From Minwuiaceae bacterium (GTDB lineage Bacteria > Pseudomonadota > Alphaproteobacteria > Minwuiales > Minwuiaceae): a DNA stretch of 64,000 bases. Under the pieces are notes generated by a model. It was not told the origin of the DNA. It saw nothing but the letters and a program-made list of their open reading frames with translations, and did no database searches. A program made the position numbers and the translations under genes. Position 1 is the stretch's first letter. Each line of letters starts with the position of its first letter. Positions 14,950 to 39,564 of this stretch are shown in pieces. The stretch spans positions 1-64,000 of the forward strand of contig JANQEE010000003.1 in NCBI GenBank assembly GCA_028278525.1. The letters run 5' to 3'.

Positions 14950-16137
14950 CTACTGAATGACGATTCTCGGACCCTGGTGGCTGCTGTCCTGCAAGGTCGC
15001 ATCGATCTTATCCGCGACCTGTCGGGCGATGGCGATATAGGCCTCCGCATGGCCGCTCTTTGGGTCGCTCACAGTGATCGGATGGCCGCCGTCTGAGGTT
15101 TCGCGGATTGCCATATGCAGCGGCACTTCGCCAAGGAAGTCGCAGCCCATCTTGTTGGCCGTTTCGCGCGCGCCGCCATAGCCGAAGATCTCCGACCGCT
15201 CGCCGCAGCTCGGGCACAGGAAATAGCTCATGTTCTCGACGATGCCGAACACCGGCACGTCGACTTTACGGAACATGTTCAAGCCTTTACGCGCGTCCAG
15301 CAGCGCGATGTCCTGCGGGGTCGAGACGATGACCGCGCCGGTGATCGGCACCCGCTGCGCCATGGTCAGTTGCGCGTCGCCGGTGCCCGGCGGCAGGTCG
15401 ACCACCATGACGTCCACGTCTTCGCCACCGGCGCCCCATTCCACGTCGCGGATCATCTGTTCCAGCGCGCTCATCACCATCGGGCCGCGCCAGATCATCG
15501 GCGTGTCTTCTTCGATCAGGAAGCCGATGGACATGCATTTGATGCCGTAGTTCTGCATCGGCATCAGCCGTTTGCCGTCCGGCGAGGTCGGCTTGCCGCT
15601 GATCCCCATCATGCGCGGGATCGACGGGCCGAAGATGTCGGCGTCCAGCAAAGCCACGCGCTTGCCCAGCGACTTCAGCGCCATCGCCAGGTTGACCGAC
15701 GTGGTGGATTTGCCGACGCCGCCCTTGCCGGAGGCCACTGCGACGATAGAGCGCACGCCGTCGATGCCCGGCTTCGCGCCGGCGGTCGCCTTCGGCGCCA
15801 TTCCCGGCGCCGTACCCGGCGGCGCGCCGGGCGCCGCTCTCGGCGGGGCGCTGGTCGGCGGTGCGGCGGGTCTGTCGCCCGGCGCTTGCCGGTGCGCCGT
15901 TAGCACGGCGGTGACGGAGGTAACGCCCGGCAACTGATGCACTGCCTGCTCGCAGGCTTTACGCAACGGCTCCTTCTGCGCGCCCACGGTCGGGTCGACC
16001 TCGACTGCGAAGCCGATATTGCCCTGTTTGACGACCAATCCGGAAATCATGCCAAGCTGCACGACGTCCCGGCCGCTGTCCGGATCGGTCACACGCCCCA
16101 AGGCATCAAGCACTTGTTGCTCGGTCACCTGCGACAT
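14950..16137 (-). CDS. Mrp/NBP35-family iron-sulfur cluster carrier ATPase
   Basis: A 395-aa protein with an N-terminal MIP18/DUF59 domain (residues 1-82), a Pro/Ala-rich linker (84-125) and a deviant Walker P-loop, GKGGVGKST (137-145). A CxxC (FLCPSCGE, near residue 310) is the probable Fe-S cluster site. Members (ApbC/Mrp) carry Fe-S clusters to apo-proteins. The gene is divergent from hflK, with a 146-bp region between them. Confidence 0.93.
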   Translation of the reverse strand: MSQVTEQQVLDALGRVTDPDSGRDVVQLGMISGLVVKQGNIGFAVEVDPTVGAQKEPLRKACEQAVHQLPGVTSVTAVLTAHRQAPGDRPAAPPTSAPPRAAPGAPPGTAPGMAPKATAGAKPGIDGVRSIVAVASGKGGVGKSTTSVNLAMALKSLGKRVALLDADIFGPSIPRMMGISGKPTSPDGKRLMPMQNYGIKCMSIGFLIEEDTPMIWRGPMVMSALEQMIRDVEWGAGGEDVDVMVVDLPPGTGDAQLTMAQRVPITGAVIVSTPQDIALLDARKGLNMFRKVDVPVFGIVENMSYFLCPSCGERSEIFGYGGARETANKMGCDFLGEVPLHMAIRETSDGGHPITVSDPKSGHAEAYIAIARQVADKIDATLQDSSHQGPRIVIQ

Positions 16138-16283
16138 GCTTGAAAACTCCAGCCTTTACACAATATTGCGCATCACGCCATTCGCGCGGTTCGGTTTGCA
16201 CGCGACGGGCGACTGTCATATAACGCGCGGTACTCGCGTAAGCAAATTCAGCCCATAAACCGACAGGGATAGGGACACGGGAA

Positions 16284-17405
16284 ATGCCGTGGAGCAACAA
16301 TCAAGGCGGAGGGGGCTGGCAGGGCGGCGGTGGCCGCGGCCCCTGGGGTCAGGGACCGACCGGCGGCGGGCCGCAACAGCCGCCCAATCTGGAAGAGATA
16401 CTACGGCAGGGGCAGGAGCGTGTGCGCCGGATGATGCCCGGCAGCACCGGCGGCGGCGTCGGCATCCTGGTCGTCATCCTCGTCGTTCTCGCCATCTGGA
16501 TGGCCAGCGGCTTCTACCGCGTCCAGACGGATGAGCAGGGCGTCGTGCTCCGGTTCGGCGAGTGGATCAAGACCACCCAGCCCGGCCTGAATTATCACCT
16601 GCCCTATCCGATAGAGTCCGTACTGACGCCGAAGGTAACCCGCGTCAACCGGATCGAAGTCGGTTTCCGGTCGGGCGAGGATTTCGGCCGAAGCGTCGCG
16701 ACCCGCGACGTGCCGGAGGAAGGCCTGATGTTGACCGGCGACGAAAACATCGTCGACGTCAACTTCACCGTGTTCTGGGTCATCAAGGACGCCGGCATGT
16801 TCCTGTTCAACATCGACCGTCCCGAAGTGACCGTCAAAGCCGTTGCCGAAAGCGCGATGCGCGAGGTAGTCGGGCGCACGCCGATCCAGGCCGCGCTCAC
16901 CGAGGGCCGGCAAACGATTGAAGACCAGACGCAGGAACTCATCCAGGCGACGCTGGACGAATACGGTGCCGGTATCGAGATCCGTCAAACCAAGATGCAG
17001 CGGGTCGACCCGCCGGCGGCGGTGATCGACGCGTTCCGCGACGTGCAGGCCGCCGAGGCCGACCGCGTGCGGCTGCAGAACGAGGCGGAAGCCTACGCCA
17101 ACGACATCATCCCGCGGGCCCGCGGTGACTCGGCCAGGATCCTTCAGGAGGCCGAAGGCTACAAGCAGCAGAAGATCGCCGAGGCCGAAGGTGAGGCGGC
17201 GCGCTTCCTGTCGATCTATGCGGAGTTCTCGCAGGCGCCCGATGTCACCAGCCGGCGGCTTTACCTGGAAACCATGGAAGAAATCTTGAACGGCATGGAC
17301 AAGGTCATTCTCGACAGCAGCGGTGGCGGCTCGGGTGTGGTTCCGTACTTGCCGCTCAACGAGTTGCGCCGCAACCAGGGCGCCACGCAGGGGAGCCGGC
17401 AATGA
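16284..17405 (+). CDS. hflK: FtsH protease modulator HflK
   Basis: A 373-aa SPFH/prohibitin-domain protein that forms with HflC a membrane cage around the FtsH protease. It has a Gly-rich cytoplasmic N-terminus (residues 1-50), one transmembrane helix (about 53-73) and a band-7 domain starting VQTDEQGVVLRFGE, followed by a coiled-coil rich in Glu, Ala and Arg. The stop overlaps the hflC ATG by 4 nt, and DUF2065 and degP follow, a standard alphaproteobacterial order. Confidence 0.95.
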   Translation: MPWSNNQGGGGWQGGGGRGPWGQGPTGGGPQQPPNLEEILRQGQERVRRMMPGSTGGGVGILVVILVVLAIWMASGFYRVQTDEQGVVLRFGEWIKTTQPGLNYHLPYPIESVLTPKVTRVNRIEVGFRSGEDFGRSVATRDVPEEGLMLTGDENIVDVNFTVFWVIKDAGMFLFNIDRPEVTVKAVAESAMREVVGRTPIQAALTEGRQTIEDQTQELIQATLDEYGAGIEIRQTKMQRVDPPAAVIDAFRDVQAAEADRVRLQNEAEAYANDIIPRARGDSARILQEAEGYKQQKIAEAEGEAARFLSIYAEFSQAPDVTSRRLYLETMEEILNGMDKVILDSSGGGSGVVPYLPLNELRRNQGATQGSRQ

Positions 17406-32477: not shown

Positions 32478-32553
<76 letters not shown>

Positions 32554-32676
32554 TCCCGCGCCGCATCGATTTTCTGAAGGGGGCTCCGTTCGACAATGAT
32601 CGAACCCGTTTGCCGCGGCGTCGGCGTGCGTGTCTCAAGTAAAGGCTGGATGGACCGTAGGGGATTGGCCTAAGCC

Positions 32677-33210
32677 ATGGCAGAAGAATGGGACCCGTCG
32701 GACGTCAAAGCGCTTCGATCGGCAGCGGAATCTGGTGACCCATGGGCCCAGTATAGTCTGGCGGCGGCCTGCGCTACCGGCGAGTTCGGCAAGGTGGATC
32801 TTGAAGAGGCGGCCCGCTGGTATTCCAGGTCTGCGGAACAAGGATACCCACCAGCGCAGTACGAAATTGGATTGATGTACCTTCAGGCAGAAGGTGTTCC
32901 AAAGAATACCGAAAAGGGTCAAAACTGGCTCAAAACTGCCGCGCGTAATGGTGATATCGGCGCGATGGAGGTGCTTGGCGAATGCTACGCGGAGGGGCTG
33001 CTCAATTTTCCTCGGGACATAAAAGAAGCCATCACTTGGTATGAGGCGTCGATTGCCAAGGGCAGTCCTCGTGCCAAATGTCTCCTGGGTTTGATTTACC
33101 TGGAAGGCAAGCTTGACGAAACAAACACAGCTAAGGGCTTTCAACTGGTTCAAGAATCCCACGATGAAGGCTATGTATATGCGCGAGATGTTCTAGAAAA
33201 ATATCAATGA
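32677..33210 (+). CDS. Sel1-like repeat protein
   Basis: A 177-aa protein made almost wholly of Sel1/TPR-like helical repeats of about 36 residues: AAESGDPWAQYSLA, SAEQGYPPAQYEIGLMY, AARNGDIGAMEVLGECY and SIAKGSPRAKCLLGLIY mark four units. There is no signal peptide, so it is likely cytoplasmic, and it may act as a protein-binding scaffold. Base composition is lower in GC than all neighbours. It is the only gene between tRNA-Lys and the duplicated tRNA end. Confidence 0.85.
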   Translation: MAEEWDPSDVKALRSAAESGDPWAQYSLAAACATGEFGKVDLEEAARWYSRSAEQGYPPAQYEIGLMYLQAEGVPKNTEKGQNWLKTAARNGDIGAMEVLGECYAEGLLNFPRDIKEAITWYEASIAKGSPRAKCLLGLIYLEGKLDETNTAKGFQLVQESHDEGYVYARDVLEKYQ

Positions 33211-33271
33211 GTGGTCGAGCCGCTAAAAGGGATCTTCTCTTTATCTCCACAAGCATTGCTAACTAGTGCGC

Positions 33272-33296
33272 GGTTCGAATCCCCGTGCACCCACCA
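33272..33296 (+). other. Duplicated 3' end of tRNA-Lys (attachment-site repeat)
   Basis: Twenty-five nucleotides, from GGTTCGAAT to CCCACCA, are identical to 32529-32553 of tRNA-Lys. No other part of a tRNA precedes it, so it is not a second gene but the distal attachment repeat. Confidence 0.88.
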
Positions 33297-33410: not shown

Positions 33411-34841
33411 ATGCCGGAAAACGGATTGGTCGCCGTCGTCAAACGAGACTGCCCGACCTGCGTGATGGTCGCGCCGGTGCTCGAGCGGCTGGCGCGCGAG
33501 ACCGGTTTGACGGTCTATTCCCAGGACGATCCGGGCTTTCCGGAAACCATCGCCGATGTCGCCGACGATACCGCTCTCGACGAGTCCTACCGCCTCGGCG
33601 TCGAGATTGTGCCGACCATCGTCCGTTTCGAGGGTGGCGCGGAAGCGGCGCGCACCTACGGCTGGGACCGGGCCGCATGGGAAGGCATCACCGGCCTCGC
33701 CGATCTCGGGCCGGACCTGCCGGCGGTCAAGCCCGGCTGCGGCGGCCTGAACCAGGAGCCCGATCGGCTCGCCGAACTGCGCATTCGTCATGGCGATACC
33801 GGCATCGGCTCCCGCCGGGTCGAGATCGGCGTCAAGGAAGACCCGATCGAGGCCTGCTACGAGCGCGGCTGGACCGACGGCCTGCCCGTGGTGCCGCCGA
33901 CCGAGGCGCGGGTACTGGCCATGCTCGACGGCACGTCGCGTAAGCCCGACGAGGTGCTCGGCGCCATGCCGCCCAACCTCGACCCCTGCACCGTGGAGAA
34001 GGTCGCGATCAACGCCGTCATGGCCGGCTGCAAGCCGGACTACATGCCGGTCCTGCTGGCCGCCATGGAGGCGGTGCTGGACGACGATTTCTGCCTGCAC
34101 GGCGTGCTGGCGACCACCCGCTATGTCGGCCCGGTGGTCATCGTCAACGGCCCGGTCGCGCGCCGCATCGGCATGAATTCCGGCGTCAATGCGCTCGGCC
34201 AGGGCAACCGCGCCAACGCCACCATCGGCCGTGCCGTGCAGCTTGCGATCCGCAACATCGGCGGCGGCAAGCCCGGCGAGATCGACCGTGCCACCCTCGG
34301 CACGCCGGGCAAGTACACCTTCTGCTTCGCCGAGGACGAGGAGAACTCCGCCTGGACGCCGTTCACCGTCGACCGTGGCCTGAAGGCCGGGACCGACGCG
34401 GTCACCGTCTTCGCCGGCAACGGGCTGCAGGGCACCTCGGACGAACGGGCGCGCACGCCCGAGGAACTGGCCGCCACCTTCGCCACCAGCATCCGCGCGG
34501 TCGACAACATCAACAAGTTCCCCGCGCCGGACGTAATCCTGGTGATCTGCCCTGAACATCAGCGCACCATTGCCGAGGGCGGCTGGGACAAGGCCCGTCT
34601 GCACGCCGAGCTGCTGGAGCGTTTGACCGTGCCGGCCGACAGCGTGATGCCGGGGGCCCACGGCATCGCCGAAGGCGTCAGCCGCAAACTCGCCGGCAAG
34701 ACGGTGTGCAAAGTCCCGCCGGAAGGCCTTATGATCGTTCGTGCCGGCGGTGGCGCCGGCAAATTCTCCGGCATCATCTCGGGCTGGACCCCGTCCAACC
34801 CGAACTACAGCCGGGCCGTAACCAAGGAGGTGACGTTTTGA
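33411..34841 (+). CDS. Thioredoxin-like domain fused to an uncharacterised domain; partner of the UGSC selenoprotein
   Basis: A 476-aa protein. Residues 1-95 look like a thioredoxin fold: strand VAVVK, redox motif CPTC (14-17) and the cis-proline context EIVPT (Pro68). From about residue 120 a long domain begins (YERGWTDGLPVVPPT, then TVEKVAINAVMAGCKPDYMPV and HGIAEGVSRKLAG); I recognise it only as a conserved uncharacterised domain. There is no signal peptide. The stop overlaps the TTG start of the selenoprotein gene, so the two are translationally coupled and probably form one redox system: the CPTC site could reduce the Sec/Cys centre of the partner. The C-terminal function is unknown. Confidence 0.75.
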   Translation: MPENGLVAVVKRDCPTCVMVAPVLERLARETGLTVYSQDDPGFPETIADVADDTALDESYRLGVEIVPTIVRFEGGAEAARTYGWDRAAWEGITGLADLGPDLPAVKPGCGGLNQEPDRLAELRIRHGDTGIGSRRVEIGVKEDPIEACYERGWTDGLPVVPPTEARVLAMLDGTSRKPDEVLGAMPPNLDPCTVEKVAINAVMAGCKPDYMPVLLAAMEAVLDDDFCLHGVLATTRYVGPVVIVNGPVARRIGMNSGVNALGQGNRANATIGRAVQLAIRNIGGGKPGEIDRATLGTPGKYTFCFAEDEENSAWTPFTVDRGLKAGTDAVTVFAGNGLQGTSDERARTPEELAATFATSIRAVDNINKFPAPDVILVICPEHQRTIAEGGWDKARLHAELLERLTVPADSVMPGAHGIAEGVSRKLAGKTVCKVPPEGLMIVRAGGGAGKFSGIISGWTPSNPNYSRAVTKEVTF

Positions 34842-35365
34842 CGTCAGACAACATCCTGCTCGATCCGACCTCGGAACGGCAGGCGCCCCATCGCGAGCGC
34901 CTGGGCCGGCCGAAGTCGCTCGAGGGATTGACCGTCGCGGTGCTCGACATCTCGAAGCCGCGCGGCGATGTGTTTCTCGACCGTGTCGCCGACCGCCTGG
35001 GCGAGCACGGCATCGCGGTCAAACGCTACCGCAAGCCGACCGTCGCGCGCCCGGCGCCGCTGGACATCCAGCAGGCGATCACGGACGAATGCGACGTCGT
35101 GGTCGAAGGCCTGGCCGACTGAGGTTCCTGCACGTCGTGCTGTACGCATGACCTGGTGAACCTCGAAGGCCGCGGCCTGCCGTCCGTCGGCGTCGCCACG
35201 ACCGAATTCGTCCAGGCCGCCGCCGTGCAGGCGGAGGCGTTGGGCGCCGATCCGGCCTATGTCTGGGTGCCGCACCCGATTCAGGACCGCACCGACGAGG
35301 AACTCAAGGCCCTCGCCGACCGCCACCTGGACGAGATCCTGGCGGCGATTACCGCGAAGGCCTGA
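34838..35365 (+). CDS. UGSC-family selenoprotein (in-frame UGA read as selenocysteine)
   Basis: A 175-aa protein when UGA at 35120-35122 is read as selenocysteine (residue 95). The reading frame continues without loss of coding character: before it DVVVEGLAD, after it GSCTSCCTHDLVNLEGRGLPSVGV, giving the motif U-G-S-C that names the known UGSC selenoprotein family. Start is TTG 34838, 7 nt after GGAGG and overlapping the upstream stop. Several cysteines follow the Sec (C98, C101, C102). A hairpin begins 11 nt after the UGA. Function is unknown; a thiol/selenol redox role with the upstream thioredoxin-like protein is inferred. A normal gene finder would split it into two fragments. No selA, selB, selC or selD lies in the window. 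Confidence 0.88.
35134..35152 (+). promoter_or_regulatory. Candidate bacterial SECIS hairpin
   Basis: A 7-bp stem GTCGTGC/GCATGAC (one G-U pair) with a 5-nt loop TGTAC starts exactly 11 nt after the UGA at 35120. The distance and minimal stem-loop size match the SelB-binding upper hairpin of E. coli fdhF. The loop carries a GU. Confidence 0.65.
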
Positions 35366-35430: not shown

Positions 35431-36255
35431 TTAAGGCGAGATGTGCCGCCGCCGGTTCGCCAGGCCGAGCCCGACAACGGCCAGACCCAGCAGGCCGAGC
35501 GCCGCCGGCGCCGGCACCGCGTCCGCGGGCTCGAACCGGGTCGTGCCCTGAAGGCCGATCAGCAGGAGGAGGTGGGCACCCTGAGTGGCCCCGATTTCGA
35601 CGGACGTCGGCGTGTTCAGGCCCTGGCATCCGGTCGAATCGAAACTCGAGACCCTGCAGGACAGCAGCAGCTCGCCGGGCTCGAACAGGTCGGCCGGATT
35701 CAAGGGTATGGTCGAGAAGTCGAGCCCCGAAAGAATCTCGCGGCCTCCGTCCAACACCAGCCCGAGTGCGACATCCATGAACACGGCCCCGCCGTCAGCG
35801 GCGGCGACCGAGAAAGTCGAGCCGGAAAACGAGAGGTCGATGGTGGTTGGCTCGGTCTCGAGCGCCACTCCGGCGACGGCGAACCCGGCCGCTTCGGCGA
35901 AATCCGCATTGGCGGCGCCACTGATCGCAGCGCCCAAATCGATCTTGTTGACGCCGTCGAGATTGATGCTCCCGTTTGCGTTGGCGCTCGCCTGGTCGGC
36001 CGGCGTGCCTTTCAGGGCGTGTGCCTTGGCGTCGGCGAATGCGGGGCCGAGATCTGTAACGCCGGTAAACTTGAATTCGAGCGAAATGTTCGCCGTGCCG
36101 TTGAACGATGGCACCGCCCAGGCGCTGCCAGCCATGAAAACCGGCGCCAGGCCGACCGCCAACGCTATCGCGGCCAAATGGCGACCCGGTCCTCGAATTC
36201 TTTGGGTGAACGCCGCTTTCAATGCGGCTGGATTGAGAGATGAGTATTCATGCAT
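35431..36255 (-). CDS. Secreted protein with VPxP-type C-terminal sorting signal (array member 1)
   Basis: A 274-aa exported protein. The start MHEYSS at 36255 parallels MHE starts in the three paralogues upstream. The signal peptide ends near AWAVPSF (about residue 47). The body is beta-rich and low in charge, with a conserved Cys pair (LLSCRVSSFDSTGC). The C-terminus has the sorting pattern VPAP, a hydrophobic helix (ALGLLGLAVVGLGLA) and RRR, as in PEP-CTERM or VPLPA-CTERM proteins processed by exosortases. It is the most divergent of four tandem paralogues. Own sigma-54 promoter (36310-36323) and upstream box (36390-36407). Confidence 0.82.
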   Translation of the reverse strand: MHEYSSLNPAALKAAFTQRIRGPGRHLAAIALAVGLAPVFMAGSAWAVPSFNGTANISLEFKFTGVTDLGPAFADAKAHALKGTPADQASANANGSINLDGVNKIDLGAAISGAANADFAEAAGFAVAGVALETEPTTIDLSFSGSTFSVAAADGGAVFMDVALGLVLDGGREILSGLDFSTIPLNPADLFEPGELLLSCRVSSFDSTGCQGLNTPTSVEIGATQGAHLLLLIGLQGTTRFEPADAVPAPAALGLLGLAVVGLGLANRRRHISP

Positions 36256-36309
36256 GACCCCTGCCTTTCTCAGCAAACGGGGCCCAACCTCATCCGCGAC
36301 ATTTACCAA

Positions 36310-36323
36310 GCAAGATACGTACC
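36310..36323 (-). promoter_or_regulatory. Sigma-54 (-24/-12) promoter of CTERM array member 1
   Basis: Minus-strand TGGTACGTATCTTGCT has GG and GC separated by exactly 10 nt, matching the TGGCACG-N4-TTGCW consensus except for one base. The -12 GC lies 55 nt before the ATG at 36255. Confidence 0.75.
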
Positions 36324-36389
36324 AAGTATGGCAACATTCAATTGATTCAGCGCCTTGGAGCGGAATCATCGTTGACTGGAATGATTGTT

Positions 36390-36407
36390 CTGTAAAATGT
36401 ACCGACA
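36390..36407 (-). promoter_or_regulatory. Conserved upstream box, array member 1
   Basis: Minus-strand TGTCGG-TACA-TTTTACAG, an imperfect dyad (TGTCGG versus TGTAAA), lies 80 bp upstream of the -12 element, the usual distance for a sigma-54 enhancer-binding protein site. Confidence 0.72.
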
Positions 36408-36450
36408 CAAACGGCCCGGCTTTGGAGGATGTCGCCGCTCCGACGCCGAC

Positions 36451-36481
36451 AAAAAAGACGGCGGCGCCGAAGCGCCGCCGT
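36451..36481 (-). terminator. Rho-independent terminator of array member 2
   Basis: On the minus strand a perfect 10-bp stem ACGGCGGCGC/GCGCCGCCGT with a TTCG loop (36458-36481) is followed by CTTTTTT. It lies 31 nt after the stop of the gene at 36512-37378. Confidence 0.92.
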
Positions 36482-36511
36482 TTAGGCCCCCGTAGTCGAC
36501 GGCCCGGCTTG

Positions 36512-37378
36512 TTACGCCGCGACCCGCCGCCGCCGGCTCGCCACGCCCAGGCCGACGACCGCCAGACCGAACAGGCCGAGCGCCGAAGGCGCCGGCACGG
36601 CGTCTGCCGTTTCGCCGGCCGGATCGAACAGGGTACTGCCCCGAATGACGAGCAACGCCGTCAGGGTCAGGTCACTGTTCGGCTCGATACCGACTACTAC
36701 GCCCGTCGTCGATCCGAAGCAGCCGGTCGGGTCCAGCGTCGAGGCGGAGCAGGAATACAGCACGTCTTCCGGCGCGAAGGCATTGGCCGGGTCGAAGAGG
36801 GGGCTGGTGAAAACCACGCCCGACGACGGGGTGTCGTTCCCGTTGCTGCCTGTCGGGCCGGCGTCGTTTGGCGCCAGGGCATTGGTTGCGGTTTCCAGCG
36901 CGAGCAGGAAATCGACCGCCACGAACGCGCCGTCCGTGACGCCGAGCGCGATGCTCGGTCCGCTGATCGACAGGCTGAGAACCGCGCCGTCAGCTGGGCT
37001 TGTCCTGATGCCGATATCGGCGGCCGAGATCGATGCCGCTTCGGCAAAGCTGAGCGGCGCCATCCCGCCGATCGTACCGCCGAGCGACATGCCGCCGGGT
37101 ATCCCGGTCGCCGTCGTCGCCGTTGCGCTTGCGTTGGCGGCATCCGGCGGGGTTCCGGCGTCGGTATAGGTTTGCCTGGCGTAATAGCCTGGGACGACGA
37201 TCCCGCCGAAGCCCAGCAGATCGATTTCAACGTTCGCCGCGCCGGTGAACGACGGCACTGCCTTTGCAGTTCCGGAAACGGCGGTTGATGCCAGGAATGC
37301 CGCCAGCACCACGGCGGGCAGGTGGCGAAGCCTTCGGTATTTGCGCTTGATTGTTTCAGGAGATGGGCGTTCATGCAT
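36512..37378 (-). CDS. Secreted protein with VPxP-type C-terminal sorting signal (array member 2)
   Basis: A 288-aa paralogue of the neighbouring genes. MHERPSPETIKRKYRRLRHLP is followed by a hydrophobic signal peptide ending at TAKAVPSF (about residue 40). Mature start VPSFTGAANVEIDLLGFGG is shared across the array. A Cys pair (YSCSASTLDPTGCFG) precedes the C-terminal signal VPAP, a hydrophobic helix and SRRRRVAA. The tail suggests export, exosortase cleavage and release or attachment to cell-surface polysaccharide. Own terminator, sigma-54 promoter and upstream box show an independent transcription unit produced by segmental duplication. Confidence 0.85.
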   Translation of the reverse strand: MHERPSPETIKRKYRRLRHLPAVVLAAFLASTAVSGTAKAVPSFTGAANVEIDLLGFGGIVVPGYYARQTYTDAGTPPDAANASATATTATGIPGGMSLGGTIGGMAPLSFAEAASISAADIGIRTSPADGAVLSLSISGPSIALGVTDGAFVAVDFLLALETATNALAPNDAGPTGSNGNDTPSSGVVFTSPLFDPANAFAPEDVLYSCSASTLDPTGCFGSTTGVVVGIEPNSDLTLTALLVIRGSTLFDPAGETADAVPAPSALGLFGLAVVGLGVASRRRRVAA

Positions 37379-37431
37379 GTCTTACGCATCCTCATCAATA
37401 AAGACGCGCACCTCCCATGCGCTCCCACTTA

Positions 37432-37445
37432 GCAAAATGCGTGCC
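37432..37445 (-). promoter_or_regulatory. Sigma-54 (-24/-12) promoter of CTERM array member 2
   Basis: Minus-strand CGGCACGCATTTTGCTA has GG-N10-GC and matches GGCACG-N4-TTGCT fully. The -12 GC is 54 nt before the ATG at 37378. Confidence 0.85.
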
Positions 37446-37511
37446 GAGTGAGCAATTGTTGAATCGCATCAATGTGTTGAGGTCTGATGCCGGTTACCGC
37501 GAACCGCGAAC

Positions 37512-37529
37512 CTGTAAAATCCACCGACA
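37512..37529 (-). promoter_or_regulatory. Conserved upstream box, array member 2
   Basis: Minus-strand TGTCGG-TGGA-TTTTACAG, 80 bp upstream of the -12 element; same sequence and spacing in the other array members. Confidence 0.75.
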
Positions 37530-37588
37530 CCGAACCGGTATGCGCGACGGATACCCTGCGCGTCACAAGTTTGCGCCGTCGGAAAGAG

Positions 37589-37612
37589 ACGGCGGCGCCG
37601 AAGCGCCGCCGT
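37589..37612 (-). terminator. Rho-independent terminator of array member 3
   Basis: The same perfect stem ACGGCGGCGC/GCGCCGCCGT with TTCG loop on the minus strand, followed by CTCTTTCC. It lies 31 nt after the stop of the gene at 37644-38474. Confidence 0.85.
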
Positions 37613-37643
37613 TCAGGCCCTCGCGGTCGGACGGCCCGGCTCG

Positions 37644-38474
37644 TTATGCCGCGATCCGCCGCCGGCTCGCCACGCCCAACCCGACGACCGCCAAACCAAG
37701 CAGGCCGAGCGCCGACGGCGTCGGCACGGCGGCGGCCTGGTCGGTCCGCGTCGTGCCCCGAACGGTGAGCACCGCCAGCACGTACTCGTCCGCCTCCCCC
37801 GAAACCGGAACTTTGACCACGTCTGTGGGGCCAAAGCAGCCAGATGCATCCAGATTAGAGGCGGAGCAGGAATAGAGCAGTCGATCCGGTTCGAAGTTGC
37901 TGGCCGGATCGAATACGATGCCTGACAAATCCGGAACAAGCATGGTGGAGGCGCTGCTGCCGTCAGGTGCCAGGGCATCGGGGATGGGTATGGTTCCAAT
38001 CTGGACGTCGACGATGACGAATGCCCCATCCGTGACGCTCAATGCGACGGTCGGAATGTCGATCGAGAAGACCAACAGACCTGCTTGCCCCGATGCGGCT
38101 CGTGGTATGATCCCGCTGTAGGCTTGTATGCCGGCCTGGGCGAAGCTCACCGGCGCCGTTCCATTGATTGTGCCGCTTAAGGAAATGGTCCCGTGCACGC
38201 CGTCTGCCCGGGTGGCCGCGGACTCTGTGGCGGCGGCGTCGGGCGGAGTGCCGATGTCGATGACGCTATCCGAGTCCGCGAAGCTGCCGTTGCTGGTAGC
38301 GTTGAAGCCTTTCAGGTCGATGGTGACATTGGCCGCGCCGGTGAACGATGGCACCGCCATGGCGTTGCCCGGCGCGAAGGCCGGCGCCAGGAAGGCGGTG
38401 AGCATCACCGCCGGCAGGTGGCGAAGCCTTCGATATTTACGCTTGGTTGTTTCAGGAGATGGGCGTTCATGCAT
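37644..38474 (-). CDS. Secreted protein with VPxP-type C-terminal sorting signal (array member 3)
   Basis: A 276-aa paralogue. Its leader MHERPSPETTKRKYRRLRHLP is almost the same as that of member 2, ending NAMAVPSF, and the mature start is VPSFTGAANVTIDL. The Cys pair is in LYSCSASNLDASGCFG. The C-terminal signal reads VPTP, hydrophobic helix and SRRRIAA. The upstream 150 bp are nearly identical to those of member 2, showing a recent duplication that included promoter and terminator. No catalytic motif is visible; a structural or matrix role is inferred. Confidence 0.85.
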   Translation of the reverse strand: MHERPSPETTKRKYRRLRHLPAVMLTAFLAPAFAPGNAMAVPSFTGAANVTIDLKGFNATSNGSFADSDSVIDIGTPPDAAATESAATRADGVHGTISLSGTINGTAPVSFAQAGIQAYSGIIPRAASGQAGLLVFSIDIPTVALSVTDGAFVIVDVQIGTIPIPDALAPDGSSASTMLVPDLSGIVFDPASNFEPDRLLYSCSASNLDASGCFGPTDVVKVPVSGEADEYVLAVLTVRGTTRTDQAAAVPTPSALGLLGLAVVGLGVASRRRIAA

Positions 38475-38527
38475 GTCTTACGCATCCTCATCAACAAAGA
38501 CGCGCACCTCCCATGCGCTCCCACATA

Positions 38528-38541
38528 GCAAAATGCGTGCC
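38528..38541 (-). promoter_or_regulatory. Sigma-54 (-24/-12) promoter of CTERM array member 3
   Basis: Minus-strand GGCACGCATTTTGC (GG-N10-GC), identical to member 2; -12 GC 54 nt before the ATG at 38474. Confidence 0.85.
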
Positions 38542-38607
38542 GAGTCAGCAATTGCTGAATCGCATCAACGATTTGAGACCGAACGCCCGTTGCCGCGAAC
38601 TGCGAAC

Positions 38608-38625
38608 CTGTAAAATCCACCGACA
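38608..38625 (-). promoter_or_regulatory. Conserved upstream box, array member 3
   Basis: Minus-strand TGTCGG-TGGA-TTTTACAG, 80 bp upstream of the -12 element. Confidence 0.75.
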
Positions 38626-38684
38626 CCGAACCGGTATGCGTGACGGACAGCCTATGCGTCACAAACTTGCGCCGTCGGAAAGAG

Positions 38685-38708
38685 ACGGCGGCGCCGAAGC
38701 GCCGCCGT
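38685..38708 (-). terminator. Rho-independent terminator of array member 4
   Basis: Same 10-bp stem with TTCG loop on the minus strand, followed by CTCTTTCC, 28 nt after the stop of the gene at 38737-39564. Confidence 0.85.
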
Positions 38709-38736
38709 TTAGGCCCTCGGTCGACGGCCCGGCTCG

Positions 38737-39564
38737 TTACGCCGCGATCCCCCTCCGGCTCGCCACGCCCAGGCCGACGATCGCCAGACCGAGCAGGCCG
38801 AGCGCCGAAGGCGCCGGCACGGCGGCGGCCTGCTCGGTCCGCGTGGTGCCCCGAACGGTGAGTACCGCAACCAATGTGTTGTTCGCGTTCGGCTCGACGG
38901 AAATTTCCTCGACGTTCGTCGGCCCGAAGCAGCCGGTCGGATCGAGTATCGAGGCCGAACAGGAGAACAACAGGTCGCCCTGATCGAAATAGTCGGCCGG
39001 GCCGAACGGGAACGCCGAGAAGTCCGGTACCAGGGAGGCGGCGGGCCTTTCGTCGCCGGATGCCAGGGCCGGGATGACAGGCAAGATGCCGATCTGGAAT
39101 TCGACGGTCACAAACGCGCCGTCCGCGCTGCTGAGCGCGATCGACGGACCGCTGAACGAGAGGAGCAGGAGGTCTTGTTCGGCTGTGGTCCGAAGCGGAA
39201 CGATGGCTTCGGCATACGATGCCGCCTCGGCAAAACCGACCGGCGCCGAACCGCTGATCGCGCCGCCCAGCGTTATGGTGCCGGGCACGGTTCCCGGAAG
39301 GGCGGCCGAGCCGCTTGCGGTGGCGGCGTCGGACGGGGTGCCGGCATTCTCGAATGTAGAGACACTGTCGAAGTTGGGCGCAACCGACCCGCCGAAGCTC
39401 AGCAGATCGATTGTAACGTTCGCCGCGCCGGTAAACGACGGCACCGCCATGGCGCTGCCCGGCGCGAAGGCGGGCGCCAGAAACGCCGCCAGCAGAATTG
39501 CCGGCAGGCGGCGGCTCTTTCGAACCGTCGCTTTCGTAATGCTTGGAAATGGGAGTTCATGCAT
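38737..39564 (-). CDS. Secreted protein with VPxP-type C-terminal sorting signal (array member 4)
   Basis: A 275-aa paralogue. The leader MHELPFPSITKATVRKSRRLP ends SAMAVPSF, and the mature start is VPSFTGAANVTIDLLSFGG. The Cys pair lies in FSCSASILDPTGCFG, and the C-terminal signal is VPAP, hydrophobic helix and SRRGIAA. It has its own sigma-54 promoter (39615-39628), upstream box (39696-39713) and terminator. It is presumably the same kind of surface protein as the other three, with sequence divergence concentrated in the middle of the protein. Confidence 0.85.
   Translation of the reverse strand: MHELPFPSITKATVRKSRRLPAILLAAFLAPAFAPGSAMAVPSFTGAANVTIDLLSFGGSVAPNFDSVSTFENAGTPSDAATASGSAALPGTVPGTITLGGAISGSAPVGFAEAASYAEAIVPLRTTAEQDLLLLSFSGPSIALSSADGAFVTVEFQIGILPVIPALASGDERPAASLVPDFSAFPFGPADYFDQGDLLFSCSASILDPTGCFGPTNVEEISVEPNANNTLVAVLTVRGTTRTEQAAAVPAPSALGLLGLAIVGLGVASRRGIAA

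Follow-up and report, generated by a model that had tools for sequence, protein, structure and literature searches.

An overlapping gene pair

The two genes described here lie side by side on the forward strand of a 64,000-nucleotide stretch of Minwuiaceae bacterium DNA (the window). The upstream gene, at positions 33411 to 34841 in the list of open reading frames, encodes a 476 amino acid protein (the partner; AF2 model with pLDDT 91.8) that has a thioredoxin-like N-terminal domain and an uncharacterised C-terminal domain. Its first ~96 residues resemble the thioredoxin family in their fold and in having a CPTC redox motif (residues 14-17 of the domain, positions 33450 to 33461) as follows: residues 3-73 match PF13728 TraF with 25.8 bits (cut-off 23), residues 1-96 of the model align with solved thioredoxin structures (VIA Z 9.2, rmsd 1.9 over 82 residues), and C14, T16 and C17 of the motif are at least 90% conserved among 63 relatives. 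The partner differs from that family in that its thioredoxin domain is followed in the same chain by a large domain that has no known relatives, and in that the thioredoxin domain is absent from many paralogous partners.

The large C-terminal domain (about 340-346 amino acids, positions 33801 to 34838) has invariant residues that include C207, H230, N246-G247-P248, R267 and H383. A preliminary description of this DNA had stated that this domain (there about 350 amino acids) is without known function, and our searches agree with it: a Pfam and NCBIfam scan of 54 partner C-terminal domains gave no family and only scattered singletons, and comparison with PDB sequences gave zero matches. The matches in a structure search with the whole partner model were dominated by the thioredoxin domain; the best match outside it, fumarate hydratase (E 1.4e-3, TM 0.24), and the cyclic amide hydrolases that came next were set aside as too weak.

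The downstream gene (positions 34838 to 35365) is preceded by a Shine-Dalgarno sequence, AAGGAGGT, at 34824 to 34831, and its TTG start codon (34838-34840) overlaps the TGA stop codon of the partner gene (34839-34841) in the sequence TTGA, just as first described. When its in-frame TGA at 35120-35122 is translated as U, this gene gives a single 175 amino acid protein with U95 in ...GLADUGSCTSCCTHD..., and the three more cysteines that had been pointed out are present in the translation C-terminal of Sec95 (C98, C101 and C102).

The UGA at position 35120 and its reading as selenocysteine

The preliminary description had taken the frames on the two sides of the UGA to be one protein of the UGSC selenoprotein family. 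Both parts of this claim hold: PF24696 covers residues 7-172 in one alignment that runs through the UGA (E 1.5e-44, 152.6 bits with a cut-off of 25), and NF041046, which also spans both sides, matches with 147 bits (cut-off 125). The window protein thus resembles the known family in being above the cut-offs of both models, in its U-G-S-C motif and in exchange of Sec and Cys at residue 95. Among 158 scored homologous codons at this residue 151 are UGA, 2 are UAG and 5 encode Cys, counts that come from a motif filter which required a stop or Cys, so that other residues would escape it. The two UAG cases are from Blastococcus and Geodermatophilus (Geodermatophilaceae), where the tRNA-Sec anticodon is CUA; in the available part of PMC5330540, UAG variants of UGSC in the Geodermatophilaceae are already published.

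A search of the window's own genome for selA, selB, selC and selD found all of them in one cluster on contig C34, as selA, a tRNA-Sec with anticodon UCA, selB and a SelD fusion, and a second UGSC gene, likewise with one UGA, lies inside the same cluster. In a class sample of 385 genomes, selA is over its cut-off in 35 of the 38 that have UGSC; the other three are 77%-complete (G011), have a Cys codon in place of the UGA (G326) or have a UGSC match without an in-frame stop (G363). The C34 cluster also holds a third selenoprotein gene (C34:36060-37247; 16061-17251 in locus L012), which is PrdB-like with its UGA at residue 154 and matches TIGR04483 with an E value of 1.8e-24, below the cut-off for that model. 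Two further PrdB-like genes with a UGA are present in this genome on contigs C3 and C31.

A 7-bp hairpin 11 nt after the UGA, noted earlier, was found again as the apical stem (35134-35152, loop UGUAC) of a SECIS-like hairpin at 35121 to 35164, in which it is closed by an outer 7-bp stem. The predicted fold of 35120-35165 has a stability of -22.4 kcal/mol (z -4.48), which none of 200 dinucleotide shuffles equalled, and relative to synonymous recodings of the same peptide its z is -4.0 (0/100 as stable). Across the UGSC family the mean z against synonymous recodings is -1.71 directly 3' of the stop and +0.11 and -0.14 further downstream, and by the same measure it is -0.36 in five UGSC genes with a Cys codon. 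The stability of the hairpin therefore exceeds what coding needs, at this locus and across the family.

Is the UGA at 35120 nevertheless a true stop, in a pseudogene or between two ORFs? Standard gene callers do end there, and the record of Paracoccus ferrooxidans plasmid pFER4 (L249 7396-7965) splits UGSC at the UGA into two annotated CDS for hypothetical proteins. We regard the chance of this as negligible and termination as ruled out by the conservation of the protein on both flanks of the codon in 150+ homologues, the UGA/UAG/Cys exchange, the matched tRNA-Sec anticodon, the hairpin and the Sec machinery. From the sel cluster, the codon exchange, the CUA tRNA-Sec of the UAG genomes, the hairpin and the co-occurrence with selA we conclude that 34838-35365 encodes a UGSC-family selenoprotein whose UGA is read as Sec, and we consider this confirmed at the level of sequence comparison. 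The Paracoccus pFER4 UGSC gene lies about 4 kb from selB.

The partner domain and the likely source of electrons

The UGSC family, of which the window gene is a member, is already known; what is new is its partnership. When PF24696 and a profile built from the partner C-terminal domain were searched separately against the class sample, as had been suggested, they picked out the identical 38 of the 385 genomes, which span 25 genera and among which kinship inflates the co-occurrence. The partner domain is present in 92 of the 95 loci that were fetched through UGSC, and in the remaining three (L061, L078 and L089) it is found elsewhere in the genome, on a different contig. Conversely, when public genomes were searched with the partner profile, 80 loci were recovered, in Proteobacteria, Actinomycetota, Acidobacteriota, Chloroflexota, Myxococcota and other groups; this sample, being picked via the partner, favours the window's subfamily. 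UGSC is present in 77 of the 80 loci, two of the other three are at a contig end, and L191 has none in the 1.3 kb downstream. The partner gene, with or without a Trx domain, may precede UGSC, UGSC may be followed by one or two partner genes, or the two may be fused in a single ORF, and the order tracks the tree (13 changes compared to 58 in shuffles). Up to eight UGSC genes are found in one genome. Since the arrangement recurs in more than 100 loci it is not due to chance, and the gene pattern supports well the view that UGSC and the ~340 amino acid partner C-terminal domain, its constant companion, form an obligate pair.

A haloarchaeal pair, on a plasmid of Natrinema zhouii (L248 7315-9011), has Cys for Sec (CGSCTSWC) and clusters with CoA-transferase, amidohydrolase and PEP mutase-family genes.

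In the Global Ocean Sampling selenoproteome of 2008, UGSC was seen fused to a conserved unnamed domain, UGSC/Unknown_1 (PMC2398784). Compared by description only, that protein resembles the single-ORF fusion in joining UGSC to a conserved unknown domain, and Unknown_1 may be the partner C-terminal domain; the available part of that paper proposes neither obligate pairing nor a function. In the accessible text of open-access papers that mention UGSC, we found no obligate partner domain, no link to thioredoxin reductase and no kinship with GrdB or PrdB, and the published account differs from ours in these points as well as in the thioredoxin-like fold that it assigns.

The preliminary description had further proposed a dedicated redox pair in which the CPTC domain reduces the Sec/Cys centre. 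The dedicated pair stands on the above counts, but the thioredoxin domain does not always belong to it: in the class sample it is fused to the partner at 29 loci and missing from 62. The loci with the fused domain form one clade (support 100/99), and an Arthrobacter plasmid locus carries the thioredoxin label in the tree only through its separate trxA gene. A TrxB-like gene lies within 2.5 kb of none of the 29 fused loci and of 14 of the 62 unfused ones (p 0.004, not corrected for kinship), and the other 48 unfused pairs have no trxB within that distance. Those of the TrxB-like genes that were compared with the TIGR01292 thioredoxin reductase model gave strong matches, below its cut-off. On annotated plasmids of Variovorax, Roseovarius and Arthrobacter trxB adjoins the pair, accompanied in Arthrobacter by trxA. 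The occurrence of fused thioredoxin domains at some loci and of adjacent thioredoxin-reductase-like genes at others supports the idea that thioredoxin reduces the UGSC-partner pair, and CPTC might reduce the Sec/Cys centre directly.

Fold, possible relatives and possible function

The available portions of two papers (PMC2398784, PMC13188914) place UGSC among thioredoxin-like proteins, and this assignment, with the UxxC motif, would fit a thiol oxidoreductase of thioredoxin fold that acts in general redox defence. The confident model of the window protein (AF2, pLDDT 94.1) has alternating strands and helices and best matches flavodoxins, receiver domains and similar folds, and no thioredoxin is among the matches listed for it, although absence from the list is not proof. 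Sec95 sits in this model between a strand (87-93) and a helix (96-111). The best structural match, 8s7v_H of the Mcr activation complex (Z 12.7, 131 residues, rmsd 2.9), scores little above a de novo protein (11.1), and we took it as a sign of a common fold only. As modelled, UGSC is flavodoxin-like, whereas the literature takes it to have a thioredoxin fold. A role in redox defence is improbable in our estimate, given this model, the obligate partner, and the paralogues, which number up to eight per genome and have catabolic genes alongside.

Comparison of the UGSC profile with PDB sequences gave chance hits only (E >0.4), and the family models point faintly to the selenoproteins of glycine and D-proline reductase. 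Sixteen of the 38 UGSC members match the TIGR01917 GrdB model, at best with E 1.6e-4 and 14.5 bits compared to a cut-off of 602.2, and individual members also match the GrdF and PrdB models weakly. An hhalign comparison of UGSC with a PrdB-like profile, headed by the PrdB-like selenoprotein of the window's own genome, placed Sec on Sec (P 3.9e-4, score 31.9, where 100 column shuffles reached at most 21.8), and its probability was 35% with a diverse alignment and 3% with a narrow one. These values are suggestive of a distant relationship between the Sec region of UGSC and GrdB/PrdB. The likeness to GrdB/GrdF/GrdH and PrdB (PF07355) consists of this weak match, which extends over the Sec and over the helix and strand that come after it, and of the UxxC motif; in addition, glycine reductase has thioredoxin reductase and thioredoxin as its electron source, according to the available part of PMC3091704. 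The differences are that UGSC is far below the family cut-offs, that its carriers in our samples are for the most part Proteobacteria, Actinomycetota and other lineages outside the clostridia, and that its partner domain is a different one: the 54 partner domains have no Pfam or NCBIfam match to a pyruvoyl partner of the GrdE/PrdA type at E<=0.5, and the partner C-terminal domain has no similarity to the PrdB-like profile.

What, then, might the pair do? The explanation we favour, to which we give about an even chance, is a selenoenzyme of two components that depends on thioredoxin, with UGSC bearing the catalytic selenol and being distantly related to GrdB/PrdB. Both gene products would be subunits of one enzyme. 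The selenol would be that of Sec95, positioned where a strand leads into the N-terminus of a helix in a flavodoxin-like domain remotely akin to the Sec domain of GrdB/PrdB, with Cys98 as the resolving thiol, and the partner domain would complete the active site and bind the substrate. Sec would attack or reduce a small organic substrate, an Se-S bond would then form between Sec95 and Cys98, and electrons passed from NADPH through thioredoxin reductase to thioredoxin would regenerate the two residues. In the window's subfamily the reductant would be built in, as the CPTC domain fused to the partner.

The roles could also be divided the other way, with UGSC as an electron relay between thioredoxin and a partner domain that is itself the catalytic enzyme. 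The obligate pairing suits this as well, the window clade has its thioredoxin domain on the partner and not on UGSC, and the partner domain is large and has many invariant residues, including one Cys and two His. Against it, the Sec region of UGSC resembles the selenocysteine of GrdB/PrdB, which meets the substrate and is not a carrier, and besides Sec and Cys the residues K40, K66, D105 and H146 are conserved in UGSC, as expected of a substrate pocket. We judge the relay to be rather unlikely.

The neighbours of UGSC-partner pairs include transporters and genes for CoA-transferases, acyl-CoA dehydrogenases, thiolases, enoyl-CoA hydratases, luciferase-like proteins and amidohydrolases, which are the mark of catabolic clusters, and no constant pathway is found among them. 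A role in metal resistance has been proposed for some selenoproteins, and a pair that handles toxic metals or organometals, with Sec-Cys as a soft-metal site and thioredoxin as the reductant, would make use of the UxxC motif and the extra cysteines of UGSC. We think this very improbable, as we recognised no gene for metal resistance in the recurrent neighbour clusters that could be identified (selA/selB/selD, trxB-like, transporters, CoA-transferase, acyl-CoA dehydrogenase, thiolase, enoyl-CoA hydratase and luciferase-like). For the selenoenzyme that we favour, the expansion to eight paralogues and the proximity to transporters and CoA-linked catabolic genes suggest that each paralogue might have a different substrate. 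The wider claim, that the pair is an undescribed class of thioredoxin-dependent selenoenzyme, a non-clostridial counterpart of glycine and proline reductase with a new partner domain and paralogue-specific substrates, we make tentatively and hold at somewhat less than an even chance. With its obligate partner, a likely source of electrons and GrdB/PrdB as a plausible relative, UGSC would become a concrete two-subunit enzyme for co-expression, reduction with thioredoxin and substrate screening.

The pair stands alone in the window, and its substrate therefore cannot be read from there. On its upstream side the last 25 bases of a tRNA-Lys gene (32478-32553), i.e. 32529-32553, are exactly repeated at 33272-33296, and the repeats flank a Sel1-like ORF (32677-33210) in a stretch whose GC content is lower, 0.54-0.59 compared to mostly 0.64-0.70; the region 32529-33296 looks like a small element that integrated at the tRNA-Lys gene and ends just before the partner gene. 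Downstream, on the minus strand at 35431-39564, are four tandem related ORFs with a tail of the type VPxPxALGLLGLAVVGLGxASRRR, and their predicted products resemble PEP-CTERM surface proteins.
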